This document shows positions 17,916 to 31,961 of a stretch of DNA of 31,961 nt, piece by piece. The position numbers and the translations under genes are program-made. Every line of letters begins with the position of its first letter. The stretch's first letter is position 1. The DNA is taken from the IMG/VR virus record IMGVR_UViG_3300006072_000027, positions 1 through 31,961 of that record; one strand, written 5' to 3'. The notes beneath the pieces were generated by a model. It was not told where the DNA came from. It made no database searches and saw nothing but the letters and a program-made list of their open reading frames with translations. The DNA comes from a virus.

Positions 17916-19145
17916 TTACCAACTTCTAACAATAATTTGACCGTTTCCACCCTTGGCGCCTGCTCCACTGGCTCTTGAATTTCCAGTAAATCCTGCTCCC
18001 CCGCCACCACCACCACCACCGCCGGGTGTAGCTCCGCAACCACCTTTACCACCGGCATTTGTTGCACCGCCACCGCCGCCTCCAGAACCACCGCCGCCAG
18101 AACCAGTTTTAAACACAACGCCATTTTGTCCTACTCCTCCGGGTGCAGTTCCTCTTGTTGCTTGACAAGAAGCACAAGTTTGATACCCTTGACCACCTCC
18201 TAGACCTCCGGCTGTTGCCGCACCCGATGTGCAATTTGTTGTACCGCCACCACCGCCACCACTGGGGCCAAAAATAGAACTACCTGCATTGTAAGGGACA
18301 GCGCCATTAATTGGTGTACCACCAGCACCACCACCCCATTCTGCACTGCCTCCACCACAGACTGATGAACCGGCACCACCGCCCCCAACTGTATTAAAAT
18401 TAGTTGTAGAACCAAAATAAGTGTTAGAAGGATAACCACCGTTTTTACCTGATGAAATTGCGGTTGGAGTGATACCAGCGCTACCAGAACCACCGCCACT
18501 ACCACCCGGAGCTTGTGCGGCACCCACGACACCTTTGAATCCACCGCCACCACCATAAGATTTTGCATAAGCGGTTGCAAGTGTTGATCCAAAGTATGTA
18601 TTACCTCCTACAACTCCAGAATTACCATTAGTTGTACAAGTTACCGATGCCCCACCGCATCCACCTGCACCAATTGTTACGTTAACTGTTGAAGTTAAAC
18701 AAGCCGCTGAAAATATTGATTGAACTCTTGCGCCTGCGCCTCCTCCACCACCTCCGGGCTTTCCGCAAATACTAGCATATGAAGCGCCACTACCACCACC
18801 ACCACCTGCACCCCAAACACACACTTGAACATAAGTAATACCTGCGGGTTTAGTCCAAGTACCTGAAGAGGTGAATGTTTGTAAGTTTGCACTAGAAGCC
18901 GATACGCAAGCCCAAACAGGAGTTCCTGCGCCTGCTGATTTCAAATATTGACCAGAAGTACCTGCGGCTGTTACTCCATGTGCAGTACCTGTTCCATAAA
19001 TAATTGCGCCCGCTGTTGGCGTTGCAGTAGAATTTGTACCGCCATTTGCAATTGGTAACGTACCACTCACACCAGTTGTCAATGATGCTTGACCTGATGT
19101 ATTTAGATTGTCGGCAAATGCGCCTAAATTACGAGGTTGTGTCAT
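17916..19145 (-). CDS. Glycine-rich tail fibre / adhesin
   Basis: This 409-residue protein has an N-terminal fibre part (about 1-85) with GTLPIANGGTNSTA and TSGQYLKSAG, elements common in phage tail fibres. From TFTSSGTWTKPAGITYVQV onward (about 90-108) it is a glycine-rich domain with many runs of five or more Gly separated by short Cys, Asn or Thr loops. Such Gly runs can form a polyglycine-II sandwich, as in the receptor-binding tips of some phages, so this is probably a host-recognition module. About 14 Cys are scattered in the loops. The end IIVRSW closes the domain. Confidence 0.7.
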   Translation of the reverse strand: MTQPRNLGAFADNLNTSGQASLTTGVSGTLPIANGGTNSTATPTAGAIIYGTGTAHGVTAAGTSGQYLKSAGAGTPVWACVSASSANLQTFTSSGTWTKPAGITYVQVCVWGAGGGGGSGASYASICGKPGGGGGGAGARVQSIFSAACLTSTVNVTIGAGGCGGASVTCTTNGNSGVVGGNTYFGSTLATAYAKSYGGGGGFKGVVGAAQAPGGSGGGSGSAGITPTAISSGKNGGYPSNTYFGSTTNFNTVGGGGAGSSVCGGGSAEWGGGAGGTPINGAVPYNAGSSIFGPSGGGGGGTTNCTSGAATAGGLGGGQGYQTCASCQATRGTAPGGVGQNGVVFKTGSGGGGSGGGGGGATNAGGKGGCGATPGGGGGGGGGAGFTGNSRASGAGAKGGNGQIIVRSW

Positions 19146-19645: not shown

Positions 19646-21076
19646 TTAAGGCGATCCAACGCAAGTTGATGGGAATTGTCGGGTAGTTCCCGGCCAGACG
19701 ATACGTACAGCACCTGTTGCGCCACATCCTCCTGCGCCATTTGGAGCAATTGTGGCGTTACCGCCACCGCCGCCACCTCCGTAACTACCGCCATTGCCAC
19801 CAATTTTTGTTGTTGCGGTTACACCTGCACCGCCACCACTTCCACCGCCACCGCCATGACTGCAACCGCCACCACCAGCGGCTCCAGCAGTGCCGTTAGA
19901 CCCTTGACCAAATAGGCCAGTGCCGCCACCACCACCGCCACCAAATTTACAACCGCCATATCTATCCATACCGCCGCCGCCGCCACCACCCGATCCTGCG
20001 GTGGGATATAAACCACCTGTGCCACCGGTACCAGAATATCCTCCTGCGCCTCCACCACCTCCCGGTGCCAAATACTGACATTCAGGTTCACTGCCTCCAC
20101 CACTACCACCACCACAACCATGCGCTCTAACACCGCCACTAGCCGTGCCAGTGTAATTAACAATTCCACCACCACCTGCACATAAAGTTGCAGTACCAAT
20201 CCAGAAACTATTGCATCCAACAAGTCCTGTAGCCCCTGCACCTCCTCCTGCTCCTTTTGCGGCAACTTTTAAAGAATAACTGTTTCCGGGCGTTACAGAA
20301 AAATTGTTAATATAACCTAAAGCGCCACCACCGCCACCACCACCTCCATTGGGGCCTGCACATTGGAAGCCGCCACCACCGCCACCGCCGCCGCCAATTG
20401 CAACTACAGAAACAGAAGTTACGCAAGCAGGAGCAACCCAAGAATAAGTGCCGGGTGTTGTGTAAGACTGTGAACTTGGAGCAATGGGCGTAGTAACACT
20501 ATTACTATTGCCACTATAAGAACCATATCCAACAGAATTTTGTGCTCTAACTTGGAATGTGTAACTTGTAGATGCTGTTAAACCTGATACTGTAATTGGG
20601 CTACTAGCTCCTGTAGCCGTAATGCTTCCGGGGCTTGATATAGCTTGATAGTTTGTAATAGTTGCGCCACCATTAGAAGCAGGGGCTGTAAATGCCACTG
20701 TTGCCGTAGTTGCGCCAGTTGCTGTTGCCGTTCCAATAGTGGGTGCGCCGGGAACAACAGCAGAAATAGTAGCAGTTGTGTTTGAGTTTGCATTTATACT
20801 GCTAATAGCATTAGTCGCTGTAACTGTAGCGTAAAGAGTATTTCCAACATCACCTGCAACTAATGTATATGTACTTGATGTTGCACCGCCAATAGCAGTG
20901 CTTGGGCTTCTATACCATTGATATGTGTATGTTGGTGTCGGTACACCTGTCCATGTTCCTGTTGTAGTCGTTAAAGTTGACCCAAATGAAGTTGTTCCCG
21001 TAACAGCAGGAGCAACCGTATTTACGGGTGGTGAGCCATAACTACCACCAACAAAGGAATTAAGAATGCCACTCAT
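19646..21076 (-). CDS. Tail fibre with Ig-like, FN3 and glycine-rich domains
   Basis: This 476-residue protein is modular. Residues about 15-105 form an Ig-like domain (TYTYQWYRSPSTAIGGATSS, then TLVAGDVGNTLYATVTATN). Residues about 108-196 form a fibronectin III domain (PGAPTIGTATATG to SYTFQVRAQNSVGYGSYSG). Residues about 205-460 form a glycine-rich domain with long Gly runs, ending in GAVRIVWPGTTRQFPST. The Ig-like and FN3 units would bind carbohydrate or extend the fibre. The Gly-rich tip is like that of the 409-residue neighbour. Its start overlaps the stop of the upstream fibre gene (ATGA, 21073-21076). It is probably a receptor-binding protein. Confidence 0.7.
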   Translation of the reverse strand: MSGILNSFVGGSYGSPPVNTVAPAVTGTTSFGSTLTTTTGTWTGVPTPTYTYQWYRSPSTAIGGATSSTYTLVAGDVGNTLYATVTATNAISSINANSNTTATISAVVPGAPTIGTATATGATTATVAFTAPASNGGATITNYQAISSPGSITATGASSPITVSGLTASTSYTFQVRAQNSVGYGSYSGNSNSVTTPIAPSSQSYTTPGTYSWVAPACVTSVSVVAIGGGGGGGGGFQCAGPNGGGGGGGGALGYINNFSVTPGNSYSLKVAAKGAGGGAGATGLVGCNSFWIGTATLCAGGGGIVNYTGTASGGVRAHGCGGGSGGGSEPECQYLAPGGGGGAGGYSGTGGTGGLYPTAGSGGGGGGGMDRYGGCKFGGGGGGGTGLFGQGSNGTAGAAGGGGCSHGGGGGSGGGAGVTATTKIGGNGGSYGGGGGGGNATIAPNGAGGCGATGAVRIVWPGTTRQFPSTCVGSP

Positions 21077-24682: not shown

Positions 24683-25756
24683 TTACCTCGTATACACAGA
24701 GATATTAGGTGCAAAGTATTCTGGTGATTTGTCGCGTTCTTCTTGTTCGACATCATAAAGATGCTTATCTGCCATCTTTTCAAGATACATGATTCTTTGA
24801 ATGTCAACTGCAGGAAACTCCAAGCTCATTTTGTGAGCTAGTAAGTTAATTACAGCCTCATACCAACGATTCGGTATGGCCAATTGCCCCGAAAGGGCAC
24901 CAACGTCTTGGATATAGGCTGAATACCATACAGTGACCTGCACAAATGAAGTAGAGGGGACTGGCCAAAGCGCCAAAGTGGGATTTGGTATTGTTCTTTC
25001 AAAATAATATTGAAAAGGTTGGTTGGCAGTAAAGTTTTTGTTAGGCAAATTGGTGTAATCGTCCCTATTTAGACGTGACATCTCAATTTCTGTGCTCATG
25101 TTTCCAAAATATAGCTCTCGCAACGCCAATGTAGTGCCATTAAATGCCAAAATACGGTAGTAAATGACATTGGATCCGGGATCTATGTCTTGCCAAATCC
25201 ATTGGCCATCAGTCACCGTGACTGCAGTAGCCGTATATAGCGTAGTCCAGTTTGTATTATCGCTCGAAGACTGTAAGTAATAGCTCCAAGTAGACGTTCC
25301 CCCCCCAGAAATGTAGGGCATGATGCCAATTGAGCCTATATACTGAGGATTACTTGTGCCGTAATTGATTGCAAAGTTTCCATTTGCGCTTGTTTGTTGG
25401 CAATATGTACTGACATCTTGGTCATACAAGTTGGAAACAGTACCGCCTGCGCTAGAAGTATAGCTACCAGAAGGTTGCTTCATTTGCCGATATAAGACGT
25501 TTAGAGCGTCATTTGCACCCGCAGGCAGGGTGTACATATACTGGTTTGCATTACAGCCTATAACGGTCTTAGAAATGGCAAAATACTGTATTCCACGGTT
25601 CATCATGTGCGACAAAAGGAAAAAAAGGTTTTCCCTAGCCGCTAACTGAAGCTCAGAACTTATCTCTTCGGCCAATTTTCCGCACCTACGCGCCGCATGA
25701 TCAATTACGGTTTGTACGGTAACTACGGTTTGACCTACTGTTCCTGAGTATGCCAT
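24683..25756 (-). CDS. Adaptor-like virion protein with an inserted discoidin-like domain
   Basis: This 357-residue protein starts with a helical part (GTVGQTVVTVQTVIDHAARR, LQLAARENLFFLLSHMMNRG) and ends in helices (IPNRWYEAVINLLAHKMSLE, IMYLEKMADKHLYDVEQEER). That matches the outline of ring-forming head-tail or tail-tube proteins such as T7 gp11. Between them, about residues 100-218, lies an insert resembling a F5/8 type C (discoidin) domain. It has NLYDQDVSTYCQ, IGSIGIMPYI, STWSYYLQSSSDNTNWTTLY, YYRILAFNG and LALRELYFGN in the expected order. Such domains bind glycans. It would make this a connector with a surface-exposed binding module. Identification as adaptor is by outline only. Confidence 0.5.
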   Translation of the reverse strand: MAYSGTVGQTVVTVQTVIDHAARRCGKLAEEISSELQLAARENLFFLLSHMMNRGIQYFAISKTVIGCNANQYMYTLPAGANDALNVLYRQMKQPSGSYTSSAGGTVSNLYDQDVSTYCQQTSANGNFAINYGTSNPQYIGSIGIMPYISGGGTSTWSYYLQSSSDNTNWTTLYTATAVTVTDGQWIWQDIDPGSNVIYYRILAFNGTTLALRELYFGNMSTEIEMSRLNRDDYTNLPNKNFTANQPFQYYFERTIPNPTLALWPVPSTSFVQVTVWYSAYIQDVGALSGQLAIPNRWYEAVINLLAHKMSLEFPAVDIQRIMYLEKMADKHLYDVEQEERDKSPEYFAPNISVYTR

Positions 25757-25765
25757 TTAATTTCC

Positions 25766-26287
25766 TTACCAACCGGGACAGTTCCAACGCTTTAGTGATG
25801 CCTTAGCTCTTGGCGCATCTCCACTTGCGTGTTTTACTACCCCAGACATTCTTGCACAAAATGAATCCTTGCGTGAACCACCTTGGGGCTGTGGAGCCTT
25901 TAAATGGCTTCCTGTCTCACGGTTGTACTTAGCCCTGCCTTTAGCTGTGAGTCCCGCGCCTTTGTCTGTCGATAGTTTTTCACCTCGTCCGACAGCCAAT
26001 GACACGCCACCACCATCTTTGTGCTTTGCAGTTTTAGCTGATTCTTTGAAAGCTTCAGCAGTTGGGGCACCCTTTGAACCAACTTTTCGCATTTTTTCAT
26101 GAGATCCATGGGCAATCCTCTCTTGTTTTGCATGAATATTGGCATACAAGCCGCCTTTGGCCATTTTCTTCCCCTCATCAGCTTTGACAAATTCTTTGCC
26201 GACCTTCTGAGGAACACCACCAAACCCACCTTTTGTGTGGGCGGCGGCTTCCATCAGCCTGTGTTGAGCAGGTGATTTACTTGGCAT
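25766..26287 (-). CDS. Small basic virion-cluster protein
   Basis: I start at ATG 26287 (MPSKSPAQHRLMEAAAHTKG, 173 residues), because the earlier ATG at 26344 lies inside the upstream gene and the first 19 residues look out of place. The protein is very basic and Gly/Lys-rich. Conserved-looking pieces are KMAKGGLYANIHAKQERIAH, RKVGSKGAPTAEAFKES and the C-terminal GLTAKGRAKYNRETGSHLKA, SFCARMSGVV and RWNCPGW. I recognise this last pattern from short phage proteins of unknown function. It may bind DNA or pack inside the head. It is coupled to the large structural gene (stop 26289). Confidence 0.6.
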   Translation of the reverse strand: MPSKSPAQHRLMEAAAHTKGGFGGVPQKVGKEFVKADEGKKMAKGGLYANIHAKQERIAHGSHEKMRKVGSKGAPTAEAFKESAKTAKHKDGGGVSLAVGRGEKLSTDKGAGLTAKGRAKYNRETGSHLKAPQPQGGSRKDSFCARMSGVVKHASGDAPRAKASLKRWNCPGW

Positions 26288-26288
26288 A

Positions 26289-28922
26289 TTAAGCTTGTGA
26301 CTCTTGCCAAGATAAACGGGCAAATGCAGTACCGTTTGAACCAATTTGGCTAACCGTTACATACAAAATATCAGGACCATCAGGATAAGTTCCCGCTTGG
26401 CTTGTAGGCACAGTGTTTGACAATCCACCACCCAATATGCAATTACCAAAAGGTGCAACTGCAGTTAAGTCTAGAGTTGTTTGGCCTGCTGTATTGGTAA
26501 AGAATGCCGCAATGGACTCACCGCCAGTGATGGTGGTTGCTGTATTGGTATTCGTAGCCACTTGCACAATTGAACTTGTATTGGTGTTGTTTTGTGTTGG
26601 AGAAGCAAAAGAAGTGAATCCACTTGTTCCACCAATAACACCATTCAAGATGAACTGAACAAGATAACTTGTAGTAGTCAACATAGCAATCTCACGCATT
26701 TGCAACTGCAAGCGATTGATAATCTCTTTGACCCCCAATGTACCCACAGTGCCGTTATCCACCGAAGGAGCCACGCGAATAGCCATAATTGGCACAGCCG
26801 TAGTGCTTGAAGTAGATACAGCCGAAGTCATACCGTAGTTAAAAATCAACGATATGTCATTGGTAAATCCACCGTCCATAACCACTGATGAACCCCAGTG
26901 AGATAGTTGAGCGGCAGTATCAGGAGATGCATACTCAACAGCAATTGGAGCAGTTGCAGAATAGGTAAATGCAGTAGCGGCGGCACCACCTGTTGCGCCC
27001 CTTGTAGCGCCTGTCAGAGATGTAGATGTCAATCCAGTATAAGAAATATACTCAATGACTCCAGAAGTACCATTACCAATAATACGAGCACTTCCACCTG
27101 CAGGGTTGAATCCTGATGTGCTACTCACATTAATCGTAGTGTCAGAAACGCCAATACTTGATGTAATGGTTGTCAATGGCAATATACTGTTTTGCTCATA
27201 GTGTGATGGCAAGTTTCCTGAACGCATATATGCTTGATATTGCACATTGTTGTTCTGGAATCCATAAACATAAATGATTGCACCACTTGTTGCCCTAAAT
27301 CCAAATCTAGCTACACCTGCACCGTACCAAGAATAGTCCATGTAGAACATTTGTATTTTGGTCAAGTCTAGGTTATATCCAGATGGATTAGATGCAGATC
27401 CAGAACCATCACACACATCCCACCATTGTGATTGTGGAATCTTAGTCTCAACAACCCTTGAAACTAGAGCATTCGCAATGGTTGCACCACGATACTCAGG
27501 AGTTATATAAAGTTGTGTGTCGCTAGTGATAGTCAAAACTCTGTAAGTTTGGCCGCGAATGGTAATATAGTCACCAACCACCAATTGGGTTGTAAATTGA
27601 GTACTGCTACCAGTTACCAATGAACTGTTTTGTGTTGCAGTAACTGTTCCAGTAATTTGGTTAACGCTATTACGCAATACGCAATATAGTGTTTGGCCAT
27701 CAAATTGGAAGAAGATACCGTTTTGGCTATCAAAGAATCCAATCTTGTTGCTTGATCCATACCAAGAATATGGGCTAACGTGAGGGATAGAAGGTACAGT
27801 AGATGTGGCTGTAGCCGCTGTTGGAGTTGACAATGCGGTATAAGTAAATGTCAACGCTGTAGGTACACTGGTAATTCTAAAAATACCATTGTAGGCAGAC
27901 TGATCAAATCCATTAACTTGCACATAAGTGTTAATAGTAAAATTATGAGGAGTCTTACTTGTAACAGTTACTGTTGTTCCAGATGAAGTTAATGAAGTAA
28001 ACGCAATCTGTGGTTTTAAAATAGTACCAGTAGAGAACTGAATACCTTTACCAGACTGGTATCGGAAATAACGTCTTGTCTGTCTGAACAGTTGCTGATT
28101 AGGAACGCCTGCACCCGCAGTAAAGTTTACAGAGCCATCATAAGCATGGCAATCCACCCAACCCACTGGACGGGCATAAAGATTAGATTGACCTGCCGTG
28201 TTAGCAATAGTCGTAGATGGTGTTCCATTCACGTTTGTAAACGTGAAGGTTGTTGCTGAAGGTGTTGTTGCTACAGTTTGTGCGCCATTGATCTGTGTTG
28301 CAGTCGATGGTCCTGTTGTTCCAGTGATGTAAATGGAAGAACCTGCTGACAAACCATGTGGGAATGAAGTTGTACAAGTTACTGTAGAACCAGAAAATGT
28401 AAATGCAGTCGTGCCAGTCAAGGCAAAAGCGCAATTTGAAAACGTGTAGCCTTGATAGCAATAGGTAGTAGCCGCAGAATAGTTGTTGACAGTAGTAACT
28501 GGATTGGCAACTTGAACGGTAATAGATGTACCTGCGCTAACACCTGCGACTACATATGCCCAACCTTGAGCATTAGGATCAATTGTGTCCTCAATAAAGA
28601 AAGGCGTACCAGTTGCAACAGTCACATTTGATGCAAACGTAATGACTAGCTGATATGTATTAGCTTGATTGCCTGTAATAGCAGACACTGGCAATGCCGC
28701 AGAGGGCAAATAATACAATGATTGACGATTGTTTTCTAGAGAAATTTGCTCCCACTTGGTAGGCTGTTGGCCATACTCAAAGTCGGTATCAATCAAGGAT
28801 TGGGGCGTAGATACACGCATTTTGTCTACAGCATCATAGGCTCCAGACCTTTGTGCCTGCTGAAGACGTAATTGATTGTCAGTATTTGACGTTGGGCCAG
28901 TGTAAACTGATAATTCAGACAT
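26289..28922 (-). CDS. Large virion structural protein
   Basis: This 877-residue protein opens with SVYTGPTSNTDNQLRLQQAQ and DKMRVSTPQSLIDTDFEYGQ (about residues 31-50), a segment I recognise from virion structural proteins of aquatic phages. The rest is a series of Thr/Ser/Val-rich beta modules (for example SFPHGLSAGSSIYITGTTGP, TPHNFTINTYVQVNGFDQSA and ISSIGVSDTTINVSSTSGFN). There are aromatic stretches such as SQWWDVCDGSGSAS and FYMDYSWYGAG. The C-terminus contains LGVKEIINRLQLQMREIAML. It could be a large fibre, collar or whisker protein. AGGTGGAAT precedes the start. The nearby upstream gene is the His-rich protein. Function is not determinable. Confidence 0.6.
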   Translation of the reverse strand: MSELSVYTGPTSNTDNQLRLQQAQRSGAYDAVDKMRVSTPQSLIDTDFEYGQQPTKWEQISLENNRQSLYYLPSAALPVSAITGNQANTYQLVITFASNVTVATGTPFFIEDTIDPNAQGWAYVVAGVSAGTSITVQVANPVTTVNNYSAATTYCYQGYTFSNCAFALTGTTAFTFSGSTVTCTTSFPHGLSAGSSIYITGTTGPSTATQINGAQTVATTPSATTFTFTNVNGTPSTTIANTAGQSNLYARPVGWVDCHAYDGSVNFTAGAGVPNQQLFRQTRRYFRYQSGKGIQFSTGTILKPQIAFTSLTSSGTTVTVTSKTPHNFTINTYVQVNGFDQSAYNGIFRITSVPTALTFTYTALSTPTAATATSTVPSIPHVSPYSWYGSSNKIGFFDSQNGIFFQFDGQTLYCVLRNSVNQITGTVTATQNSSLVTGSSTQFTTQLVVGDYITIRGQTYRVLTITSDTQLYITPEYRGATIANALVSRVVETKIPQSQWWDVCDGSGSASNPSGYNLDLTKIQMFYMDYSWYGAGVARFGFRATSGAIIYVYGFQNNNVQYQAYMRSGNLPSHYEQNSILPLTTITSSIGVSDTTINVSSTSGFNPAGGSARIIGNGTSGVIEYISYTGLTSTSLTGATRGATGGAAATAFTYSATAPIAVEYASPDTAAQLSHWGSSVVMDGGFTNDISLIFNYGMTSAVSTSSTTAVPIMAIRVAPSVDNGTVGTLGVKEIINRLQLQMREIAMLTTTSYLVQFILNGVIGGTSGFTSFASPTQNNTNTSSIVQVATNTNTATTITGGESIAAFFTNTAGQTTLDLTAVAPFGNCILGGGLSNTVPTSQAGTYPDGPDILYVTVSQIGSNGTAFARLSWQESQA

Positions 28923-28969: not shown

Positions 28970-30646
28970 TTACTTTTTGATACTGCCACCACGCTTTTTA
29001 GGTGGTACAACTGTAGTTGATTTTACAGTTTTAGTCACGCTACCTGATGGAGGCGCTCCAAATCCCAAAGCATTCTTGACCATGTTGTATCCACTTGTTA
29101 GCGGCTTCAACATCATGTCACGCATTGCTATATTGTCGGCCTTGTCTTGTTTTGCAACAGAGTCATAGCCTCCATGAGATTCGTCAGTGGTAGAGCCACC
29201 ACCATCAAACTTTTTTACGTGGCCACCCTTCTTGAACACACCCGACAACTCATTGATCCGAGTAGCTCTTGAAGGAGGTTTGTTAGCTTGGGGCATTACC
29301 ACGGCAGAACCCTGTTTGTTAACAGAGCCCCCCGTGGCGAAGTGCTTTTTTGCGTGGCCACCTCGCTTGAATCCACCTGCATTAGCTTCTTTCACCTCAC
29401 CAGTTTTGGTGTGTGATTTGCCCTTGGGTGTAGTATCAACATTGTAGTTGGTGAAGTGACCTTCATTGCCTTCAATGGTGCCCTCTAGATCAACCATGCC
29501 GCCTTTAGCATAGTGGTGCTTCTTAGCCTTGCCACCGTGCTTGAAACCGCCGTCATTGGCCATATCAACTTGGCCTGTACCGCGAGCTTTTCTATCAGGC
29601 ATTGCAGTGTGCAAATCAGTGTTCTCGTAGTAGTGCTCATTACCCTCGATAGTTCCACCCATGACTGACTTGCCACGTGTTTCGCTCTCGTTGGTCTCAC
29701 TAGGAATACGTGAACCAATTGCACCGCCACTAGCGTACTTGCCGCCTGAACACATAGCTTTATGGTGCTCCATCATCTTTTTGTGATGAGCAGAACCACC
29801 TTCTTTGTGCATTTTGGCATGGTGTTTAGCCATGTGCTTGTGGTGCTCAATAGAGCCTTCAGGATGGCCAGATTTATGGTGAACCTTACCACCATGCTTA
29901 AAACCACCTGCATTGCCCTCTTTGATTTCACCAGTACCGTGTGCTGTATCACGACCTGCACCAACAACCTTGGTTTTGACAAAAGGCTTTTGGTTGTTTT
30001 CAATGGTATTTTTTGTTTCAAAACTATCCATTTCCTTCCCGCCGTCAACCTTGCCACCCTTGGCATAATGATGTTTAGATCCACCAGTTTTGCATTTTTC
30101 CAAATGCTCCATGGCTTTATCTAGATGATGAGCACCGCCACCTTCTTTGTGTTTCTCAAGGCAAGCTCTGGCTTTAGCAAGATTCTTCATGCGCTCAGAA
30201 GCAGAACCACCTGCGGCCATACCTTTGTGGGCTAAGTGAGCAGGCATATGCTCGTGATGACGCAACTCTTTTTCAATCTTCTCAAAGCGTTTGTCTTCAG
30301 CTTCTTGCTCTTTACGAGTTTCGATCTCACCGCCGACAGCCTTGTGAGCCTTGCCACCTTTTTTCATCAAAGGAGTAGCCATTGCCTTGCGGCGCATAGC
30401 CATGCTAGGACGCATAGGAGCCGCACCTGCCATTGCAGGAGCCATGCCCATAGGACGTGCCATAGGCATTCCGCTCATTCCACCCATAGCGTGGTGTTCC
30501 ATTGACTTGTGGCCGTGCTCTTCCTTGCTTTCATGCTTTTTGGAAACATGACCGCCTTTTTTGAGCTTCAGAATAACTGAAGGCTCGTCAGTCATCATTT
30601 TGGGCATTTGGACGAATCCAGTTGCACCCTTCATTGCTTTTGCCAT
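28970..30646 (-). CDS. His/Gly/Lys-rich repeat protein in the head-gene region
   Basis: This 558-residue protein is extremely rich in Lys, His, Gly and Met. It carries many KxGG and HxGG elements (LKLKKGGHV, HYAKGGKV, FKHGGKAKK). Three related segments at about 213-256, 331-377 and 389-435 share the pattern TIExN, then GTGE/Q or KTGE, then A-N-(A/D)-G-G-F-K-(H/R)-G-G. Around 50-105 it is Met/Pro-rich. It has no membrane segment. The composition suggests a basic, possibly metal- or nucleic-acid-binding protein. Its place two genes after the probable capsid protein makes a head location possible. No family with known function is recognised. Confidence 0.55.
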   Translation of the reverse strand: MAKAMKGATGFVQMPKMMTDEPSVILKLKKGGHVSKKHESKEEHGHKSMEHHAMGGMSGMPMARPMGMAPAMAGAAPMRPSMAMRRKAMATPLMKKGGKAHKAVGGEIETRKEQEAEDKRFEKIEKELRHHEHMPAHLAHKGMAAGGSASERMKNLAKARACLEKHKEGGGAHHLDKAMEHLEKCKTGGSKHHYAKGGKVDGGKEMDSFETKNTIENNQKPFVKTKVVGAGRDTAHGTGEIKEGNAGGFKHGGKVHHKSGHPEGSIEHHKHMAKHHAKMHKEGGSAHHKKMMEHHKAMCSGGKYASGGAIGSRIPSETNESETRGKSVMGGTIEGNEHYYENTDLHTAMPDRKARGTGQVDMANDGGFKHGGKAKKHHYAKGGMVDLEGTIEGNEGHFTNYNVDTTPKGKSHTKTGEVKEANAGGFKRGGHAKKHFATGGSVNKQGSAVVMPQANKPPSRATRINELSGVFKKGGHVKKFDGGGSTTDESHGGYDSVAKQDKADNIAMRDMMLKPLTSGYNMVKNALGFGAPPSGSVTKTVKSTTVVPPKKRGGSIKK

Positions 30647-30659
30647 GAATTATTCTCCT

Positions 30660-31712
30660 TTAAGCTTGGGTGATGCCAAGCAAACCAGTTGCTGTAGCGT
30701 TAGGGCCAACCTGAATTGCAGTCAAACCTAACTCAAGTACCAAACGGGCTAGACCGTTCAGAGTGCCGCCGGGTGCATAAGTGCCGCGCACATCAGGTGT
30801 TACTGAGGTAGAAGTAAACTGGGGAACCAAGCTCATACCAGAGGTAATTGTTGTGCCGCTAGTAGCAACATAAGTACCTGCCAAGTAGTTGGCTTGAGTT
30901 GTAGACAATTTACCAGTTGTACCGTTAATCTTTGTCCACCAGTAAGTAGTGTTCAATGAAACTCCGGTCAAAGTACCCAAAGCACCAGTCAACTGAATCA
31001 AAGTACCACTCTCAGGAGCATAGGCCACGGTGATAACGCCGGGCGTAGCTGATGTGAAGTTAGTAATTGATTGAGTATTGTAGTTAGTGGTGTTGCTGTA
31101 ATAGCCACTCAAGTAAGTACCTGAATCAAATGCAAGTGATCCAGTAAACTTGTTAGAAAGGATATAACTAGCATCGCTCATACGAGCAGGCAAACCGAGG
31201 ATATTTGTTGTATCAACAGACACTGCAACAGTGGTTGCGGCTGAATAAGCAACTGAATAAACTTGGAAGAAAGCCTTGCGACCACTGGTAGTTGTTGATG
31301 CAACAGTACCAGACTGAATGATTTCAGTCATTGATTGGCCGTAATAGTCATAACCAGTGATAGTTATAACTGAATTGGTGGGTGATCCTGATGCTGTGGT
31401 TACAGATACTGCACGTGGATAGTCAAACTGAATAACAGAAGTACCATCTGAACGAATAACAGTAGTTGTTCCTGCAGTAGCAGAAGCAGTGGCAAGTGCA
31501 GTACCACTATAAGTGGTTGCAGTTGTAGGTGTCTTGGCGGCCAATACAGCGGCAGTAGTGGCAACAGCAGGAGTTGTATCATATAGATACACACGTCCCA
31601 TTGGGCCAAAGCCAACTGACATTGGGGAAGGATTCTGAAAGGCGCTGTTGGCGTTTGTGCCAACGTACGCAGGTGCATTGCCTAGAAATAGGTCATCTGA
31701 AAATTGGGGCAT
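30660..31712 (-). CDS. Putative head decoration / capsid-associated protein
   Basis: This 350-residue protein begins MPQFSDDLFLGNAPAYVGTN and includes SVGFGPMGRVYLYDTTPAVA. It is Thr/Ser/Ala-rich with alternating strands (SVIQFDYPRAVSVTT, SVITITGYDYYGQSMTEIIQ). The C-terminal part holds the segment TPDVRGTYAPGGTLNGLARL, which I recognise from virion proteins encoded next to capsid genes. GGAG precedes the ATG. Only 28 bases separate it from the terminator behind the capsid gene. It probably binds the capsid surface. The exact class (decoration or minor head protein) is inferred. Confidence 0.55.
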   Translation of the reverse strand: MPQFSDDLFLGNAPAYVGTNANSAFQNPSPMSVGFGPMGRVYLYDTTPAVATTAAVLAAKTPTTATTYSGTALATASATAGTTTVIRSDGTSVIQFDYPRAVSVTTASGSPTNSVITITGYDYYGQSMTEIIQSGTVASTTTSGRKAFFQVYSVAYSAATTVAVSVDTTNILGLPARMSDASYILSNKFTGSLAFDSGTYLSGYYSNTTNYNTQSITNFTSATPGVITVAYAPESGTLIQLTGALGTLTGVSLNTTYWWTKINGTTGKLSTTQANYLAGTYVATSGTTITSGMSLVPQFTSTSVTPDVRGTYAPGGTLNGLARLVLELGLTAIQVGPNATATGLLGITQA

Positions 31713-31782: not shown

Positions 31783-31961
31783 TTAAACGCCTGCTGTACC
31801 AAACAACGCGCGTGGATCAGTCCAGTTAGGAATGTAACGCTCAGTTGCTTTATAACGCATTGAATCAGTCTCGAAATCACCTTCCATGGTTTTCTCCAAA
31901 CGTCTACGCATCATGAGCTTCATGCCCTCTGGCGCATCAGTCTGAACCCACCATGCAGTGG
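31783..31961 (-). CDS. Probable major capsid protein, C-terminal end (partial)
   Basis: The last 58 or so residues enter from the right edge and end at TAA 31783-31785. They include TDAPEGMKLMMRRRLEKTME, FETDSMRYKATERYIPNW and TDPRALFGTAGV. The pattern of a basic helix, then (F/D)-xD-x-x-RYKATERY, then W-T-D-P-R-x-x-x-G, matches my recollection of C-terminal ends of phage major capsid proteins. The strong terminator right after it and the following decoration-like gene fit that role, since capsid genes often have a terminator behind them. Only the tail of the protein is visible, so the assignment is probable, not certain. Confidence 0.5.
   Translation of the reverse strand, partial: TAWWVQTDAPEGMKLMMRRRLEKTMEGDFETDSMRYKATERYIPNWTDPRALFGTAGV

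Follow-up and report, generated by a model that had tools for sequence, protein, structure and literature searches.

What does a long protein rich in histidine, lysine and glycine do among the head genes of a virus, and which of its properties are constant enough to reveal its role? We addressed this question for one open reading frame in a 31,961-base virus record, the whole of which we call the window. The product of this frame, referred to below as the KGG protein, is encoded in a block of genes arranged as follows.

31783..31959, minus strand: major capsid protein (MCP), C-terminal 58 residues, cut at the window edge
30660..31712, minus strand: 350-aa protein, putative decoration or cement protein, located between MCP and KGG protein in every case with both visible
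28970..30646, minus strand: KGG protein, 558 aa with an ATG start, a Lys/Gly-rich mosaic of the head module predicted to be mostly disordered
26289..28922, minus strand: 877-aa virion structural protein (phrog_5838); a 250-aa gene occupies the same place in other relatives
25766..26287, minus strand: small, basic DUF6321 protein with MAKGG and KxGG; called from TTG at 26344, likely start ATG at 26287
24683..25756, minus strand: tail adaptor (SU10_adaptor), with which the conserved block ends

About 90 IMG/VR contigs keep a fixed order of portal, three genes, MCP, 350-aa gene, KGG gene, 877-aa or 250-aa gene, DUF6321 gene and adaptor. The sequence-only reading had placed the gene beside the capsid genes, which this order and the MCP C-terminus at the window edge confirm. 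Its interpretation holds in part: the position between MCP and tail adaptor and a net charge of +37, histidines not counted, fit a basic, probably virion-associated protein of the head region. The MCP group includes Caulobacter phage RW and Roseobacter, Pelagibacter, Planktothrix and Alcaligenes phages. The RW capsid protein is 77% identical to that of uncultured phage MW202545 from Manatee Spring, whose protein UOF78453 is a true relative with the same locus, N-terminal peptide, modules and C-terminus. Since no KGG protein is found between MCP and adaptor in RW, a shell of this type can do without it. Planktothrix phage Pag-Yong1, phage DSL-LC04 and Pelagibacter phage HTVC023P encode small basic proteins with KGG (xKGG) motifs and/or DUF6321 between their capsid and adaptor genes, but these are short and are not aligned with the window protein by tblastn.

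Several neighbouring genes deserve a brief comment. The 877-aa protein resembles phrog_5838 and virion structural proteins of T4-like cyanophages (~39% identity over 90% of the length), and by this similarity the gene is an exchange between very different phage groups. Stretches similar to the DUF6321 protein occur in 549 phage records, mostly of cyanophages and pelagiphages, none with a known function. Residues 100-180 of the tail adaptor give a weak F5/8 type C-like match under the Pfam cut-off. In one set of annotated relatives (L080, 14187-14642; L161, 6311-6742; L162-L166), every member has a gene for a GroES-like co-chaperonin between portal and MCP.

The composition of the KGG protein (Gly 14.7%, Lys 13.8%, His 7.9%) is as the sequence-only reading described it. 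The three related segments that it had noticed are real repeats: local alignment scores against 1000 shuffles were 91 for modules 1 and 2 (z 11.6), 90 for modules 1 and 3 (z 10.3) and 120 for modules 2 and 3 (z 17.7). The many KxGG elements also stood up to scrutiny, with 10 copies of [KR]xGG compared with 2.1 expected (2000 shuffles, maximum 8). A second repeat family, formed by residues 149-188 and 264-301 (z 6.9 against shuffles), had been overlooked. AlphaFold2, run with a 65-sequence alignment, returned a model of low overall confidence (mean pLDDT 53.6), in which the three modules appear as disorder (block pLDDT 34-44) and the second repeat family as two helical hairpins, accompanied by a C-terminal helix. 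Because only the hairpins and this helix are ordered in the model, the KGG protein is predicted to be a flexible chain bearing helical beads and not to fold as a repeat protein. Its parts, all on the minus strand, map as follows.

30545..30616, minus strand: conserved N-terminal peptide, residues 11-34 (FVQMPKMMTDEPSVILKLKKGGHV), from an alignment of 123 relatives
30083..30202, minus strand: helical hairpin 1, residues 149-188, Cys/His-containing, without the SilE-like motif; pLDDT ~87
29879..30010, minus strand: module 1, residues 213-256, ending in NAGGFKHGGKVHH; predicted disordered
29744..29857, minus strand: helical hairpin 2, residues 264-301, His/Met/Cys-rich, a cassette that many relatives lack; pLDDT 92-94
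29810..29842, minus strand: HxxMxxxHxxM, residues 269-279, in helix 1 of hairpin 2, from a pattern search
29753..29785, minus strand: HxxMxxxHxxM, residues 288-298, in helix 2 of hairpin 2, from a pattern search
29516..29656, minus strand: module 2, residues 331-377, ending in NDGGFKHGGKAKKHH; predicted disordered
29342..29482, minus strand: module 3, residues 389-435, ending in NAGGFKRGGHAKKH; predicted disordered
29204..29245, minus strand: SG[TV]FKKGG joint, residues 468-481, after which the exchangeable C-terminal cassettes of relatives follow
29069..29170, minus strand: C-terminal helix, residues 493-526, a variable region, from AlphaFold2 and comparison of relatives
28973..29026, minus strand: C-terminal tail with the last KxGG (PPKKRGGSIKK)

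The window protein matched nothing in Pfam, PHROGs or NCBIfam, and a search of 84,980 genomes confirmed no bacterial homologue of either the full-length protein or the hairpin. Designed ankyrin-type proteins (PDB profile, best E 0.008) and DnaK lids and other helical hairpins (Foldseek, all E above 1) were judged to be compositional or generic matches.

To separate constant from variable features we turned to relatives gathered in two scans of viral contigs; the related contigs are not independent of one another. Among 127 distinct sequences, 123 could be aligned at the N-terminus; F, K, T and E of the pattern F-x4-K-x2-T-x-E-P are present in all of them and P in 122. The other nearly invariant columns are the module endings, GTG...NAGG[FY]KxGG. 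A stricter form of the joint, [YF][KR]xGGx[VAIT], occurs in 99 of 100 KGG proteins, with 355 copies compared with 1.3 in shuffles. As aligned and modelled, the constants of the family are thus the locus, the N-terminal peptide and KxGG modules predicted to be disordered. The window protein has the three features by which we define the family here: the locus, the N-terminal peptide and [YF][KR]xGG joints above chance.

The rest of the chain varies quickly. When nine head-module genes were compared over their full length in phage pairs with MCP identity of 97% or more, the KGG protein came out as the least conserved (median identity 0.52); the median for the 350-aa protein is 0.65. Over aligned residues only, the KGG median is 0.66 and the first pre-MCP gene is similarly diverged (0.65). 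Whole segments differ as well: L053 and L130 have MCPs that are 99.3% identical, yet only one of them has the hairpin, which is cleanly missing from the other, while another cassette shows the reverse distribution. Beyond the SGTFKxGG joint, different relatives carry different insertions. One cassette of ~70 residues, found in L085 and others, has a match in phrog_7884, and its model is a folded beta-beta-beta-alpha unit (pLDDT 84). Similarity extends to 18 Pseudomonas phage records; the two T7-like Pseudomonas phage genomes inspected have its homologues as small ORFs that precede the RNA polymerase gene, in the early region. Foldseek gave no usable match for this cassette (best E 0.29). Some relatives carry instead a KSDAELKYI... 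domain, for which no match was found among phages, and a GRKISGKEAKAIHSLLKGR segment matches an unannotated stretch in a small-gene cluster of Rhizobium phage RHph_Y1_11. Judging from these comparisons, cassettes are gained, lost and exchanged at the KxGG joints while the capsid protein hardly changes.

The strict motif also turns up in further head-module proteins. We counted it in the non-redundant ORFs of the related contigs and found it in 20 of 187 small ORFs between the KGG and adaptor genes (20 motifs, 0.44 expected) and in 14 of 53 ORFs before the portal (16 motifs, 0.36 expected); composition therefore does not account for it. In both groups it tends to lie at the C-terminal end, within 45 residues of the C-terminus for 18 of 20 and 12 of 16 motifs, respectively. 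No copy was detected in 550 shell, scaffold, portal and adaptor ORFs or in 356 tail-side ORFs, so that 34 of 240 candidate head-module ORFs stand against 0 of 906 shell, portal, adaptor and tail ORFs (Fisher p 1e-24). The signal is strong only for the stricter motif over many contigs, since plain [KR]xGG across the whole MW202545 head module shows a weak excess (9 v 5.2 expected). Small proteins between KGG and adaptor genes in eight relatives (L027, L043, L048, L055, L083, L090, L111 and L126) have K[VI]ST...KNxKHKxxW-type tails after YKKGG. A similar SKIST...NY ending is found on some KGG proteins (L067, L072) and forms a second C-terminal element in common.

The ORFs before the portal include GP88 proteins and, in the three relatives examined, proteins with ART-PolyVal domains, candidate injected ADP-ribosyltransferases (ARTs) whose genes lie just before a GP88-type ORF and the portal.

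L177, 11586-14579: ART-PolyVal protein
L179, 5508-9584: ART-PolyVal protein
L182, 17077-19725: ART-PolyVal protein

The strict motif is on the ORF adjoining the portal, and the ART-PolyVal ORFs themselves have looser xGG forms only. T4 Alt is the injected prototype. ART-PolyVal domains belong to the polyvalent class of proteins, predicted to be injected together with phage DNA (PMC5512222).

How might these features fit together? We tentatively favour, as somewhat short of probable, a reading in which the KGG protein is a virion-internal carrier of accessory cassettes that is released with the DNA and works in the manner of T4 internal proteins. The KxGG motif and/or the N-terminal peptide would dock proteins on a common partner in the head interior, the basic chain would lie with the packaged DNA, and the protein would be packaged and then delivered together with that DNA. 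In the new host the cassettes would act as T4 internal proteins do, the His/Met hairpin being one such cassette. This proposal draws on the conserved locus and N-terminus, the flexible chain, the exchange of cassettes and a motif common to head-module proteins only, and it is supported by the ART-PolyVal genes before the portal in three relatives. Several observations count against it. The N-terminal peptide is confined to the KGG protein (156 hits to its pattern in these phages, the single other hit being a truncated KGG ORF), the common element is the C-terminal-type motif and is present in only 34 of 240 ORFs, Caulobacter phage RW manages without the protein, and a Lys/Gly-rich chain could equally sit outside the shell. 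Of the head genes tested in the module, none was recognised as a prohead protease.

The internal proteins of T4 have a conserved targeting sequence, are otherwise highly diverse and are injected (PMC3012670, PMC12373910). IPI-IPIII resemble the KGG protein in being Lys-rich head proteins in which a conserved N-terminal peptide precedes very variable content while the capsids remain similar, and some neighbouring relatives encode ARTs, as T4 encodes Alt. The differences are that T4 has several small proteins, whereas here there is one long repeat protein, and that the T4 targeting sequence (CTS) is common to several packaged proteins but the KGG N-terminal peptide is not. Because no sequence similarity to T4 internal proteins was found and the N-terminal peptide is not common to other phage proteins, the KGG protein is, on these comparisons, not a member of that group. 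Polyvalent proteins (Iyer et al. 2017, PMC5512222) offer a second parallel, as they are multi-domain, shuffle their domains and are encoded among head genes, and the ART-PolyVal genes of relatives lie a few genes upstream. The KGG protein, however, is predicted to be mostly disordered and, by Pfam, has no known polyvalent domain; membership would call for at least two recognised effector domains in one polypeptide, and some relatives carry one cassette family of unknown function.

A bolder extension of the virion-internal reading, which we consider rather unlikely, is that [YF][KR]xGGx[VAIT] acts as a hitherto undescribed tag that sorts accessory proteins into the heads of a group of freshwater phages. 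This gene would then make a multi-tag carrier, whose effector and metal-binding cassettes pass between phages with nearly the same shell. A literature search found no paper describing such a motif or protein. The tag and the cassette array, which lay outside the reasoning of the sequence-only reading, are the most interesting result of the analysis. If the extension is true, the tag would provide a simple sequence rule for predicting packaged and delivered proteins in abundant uncultured freshwater phages, a counterpart to the T4 targeting sequence for T-even phages; the cassettes would become a list of candidate host-takeover or anti-defence domains, and the hairpin a phage-borne metal-binding element.

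The same gene position can be read from the outside of the head. The N-terminal peptide could attach to the shell or to the 350-aa protein, with the cassette chain projecting outward to bind metals, polysaccharide or humic matter. The gene follows those for MCP and the 350-aa protein, a place at which cement or minor capsid proteins are annotated in related phages. Rapid variation is typical of surface appendages, and it extends to the neighbouring genes, as the divergence of the 350-aa protein and the alternation of 877-aa and 250-aa genes illustrate. External decoration is nevertheless unlikely in our judgement, as the resemblances of two cassettes point to small accessory or early ORFs of unrelated phages and not to surface domains, the motif is common to ORFs adjoining ART-PolyVal proteins predicted to be injected, and a search of KGG proteins for sugar-binding or Ig-like domains found none.

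The motif copies themselves suggest another use. With ~8-10 short copies on a disordered chain and single copies on other head-module proteins, the KGG protein could be a flexible, scaffold-like or condensate-forming assembly factor that brings head-module proteins together by multivalent KxGG contacts, without necessarily remaining in the particle. We regard this as quite unlikely: a separate three-gene block directly upstream of MCP holds the usual scaffold position, domain-like exchangeable cassettes are unexpected in a scaffold, and phage RW has no KGG protein at this place.

The remaining explanations rest on histidine, whose abundance the sequence-only reading had linked to binding metals or to buffering or condensing packaged DNA. 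In the 126 relatives that reach 300 residues, His content falls mostly into two classes, 1-3% or 6-17%, and spans 0.3% to 17% at the same locus; 42 of the 126 have at most 5% His with the same N-terminus and modules. UOF78453 is likewise His-poor, with 8 His in 449 residues (1.8%) and, unlike the window protein, without the His/Met hairpin. Lys (about 10-17%) and Gly (12-17%), by contrast, keep to one range in His-rich and His-poor relatives. Pairs of phages with 96-99% identical MCPs differ strongly in His; at 97-99% identity, His numbers were 30 v 13, 42 v 9, 38 v 8, 43 v 9, 44 v 7 and 49 v 1, a 2- to 49-fold difference. On an MCP tree the distribution of the two states requires 13 changes, although support is low and the MCPs are nearly identical. 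We therefore rejected His-richness as a core property and regard it, being bimodal even between phages with 99% identical capsid proteins, as a variable, lineage-specific overlay. Habitat as its cause was not supported either; contigs that share a sample number (3300032223, 3300032240) are of both kinds. Even if the virion-internal reading is wrong, the naive step from a His-rich protein to a metal or DNA buffer is corrected, with histidine as an overlay on a conserved KxGG protein.

The part of the metal proposal that survives concerns the hairpin. HxxMxxxHxxM occurs twice in hairpin 2, once per helix, and is absent from hairpin 1; across the family it is found 84 times compared with 1.45 by shuffling, counts that come from related sequences and are not independent events. 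The pattern is identical to motif 2 of SilE, a silver-binding sponge that is disordered and in which His and Met bind Ag+ and drive the formation of helix (PMC5008109, PMC10080550), and several hairpin positions alternate among H, C, M or Y. On this pattern we propose metal binding for the hairpin cassette alone, with a soft or borderline ion (Cu, Ag or Zn) as the probable partner. The likeness to SilE/PcoE consists of HxxMxxxHxxM on helices in an otherwise disordered chain, but the KGG protein has no signal peptide or comparable operon context, has the pattern in hairpin 2 only, and neither it nor the hairpin gave an NCBIfam, Pfam or PDB match indicating homology to these proteins. A Cys/His zinc site in the hairpins (C-x3-H ... 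H-x3-C in hairpin 1) was considered and dropped because the Cys residues are not conserved across hairpin copies.

That the whole protein exists as a metal store or buffer, whether in virions or in infected cells, is very doubtful despite the enrichment of the SilE-type pattern in both helices and the alternation of metal ligands. The 42 His-poor relatives mean that metal storage cannot be the family function, and the hairpin is a minority cassette by locus, can be lost between near-identical phages and in its first copy lacks the motif. Least probable of all is that the protein condenses DNA or buffers charge or pH through His and Lys, since, for all its positive charge and the contacts of T4 internal-protein lysines with packaged DNA (PMC3012670), His content varies at the same locus over the whole range given above, Lys is the constant basic residue, and the conserved pattern (N-terminal peptide and GTG...NAGG[FY]KxGG) is sequence-specific, more than charge.

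Glycine-rich proteins are also encoded elsewhere in the window: two tail-region proteins on the minus strand (17916-19145 and 19646-21076) contain 27-31% Gly, and the second has an fn3 domain.
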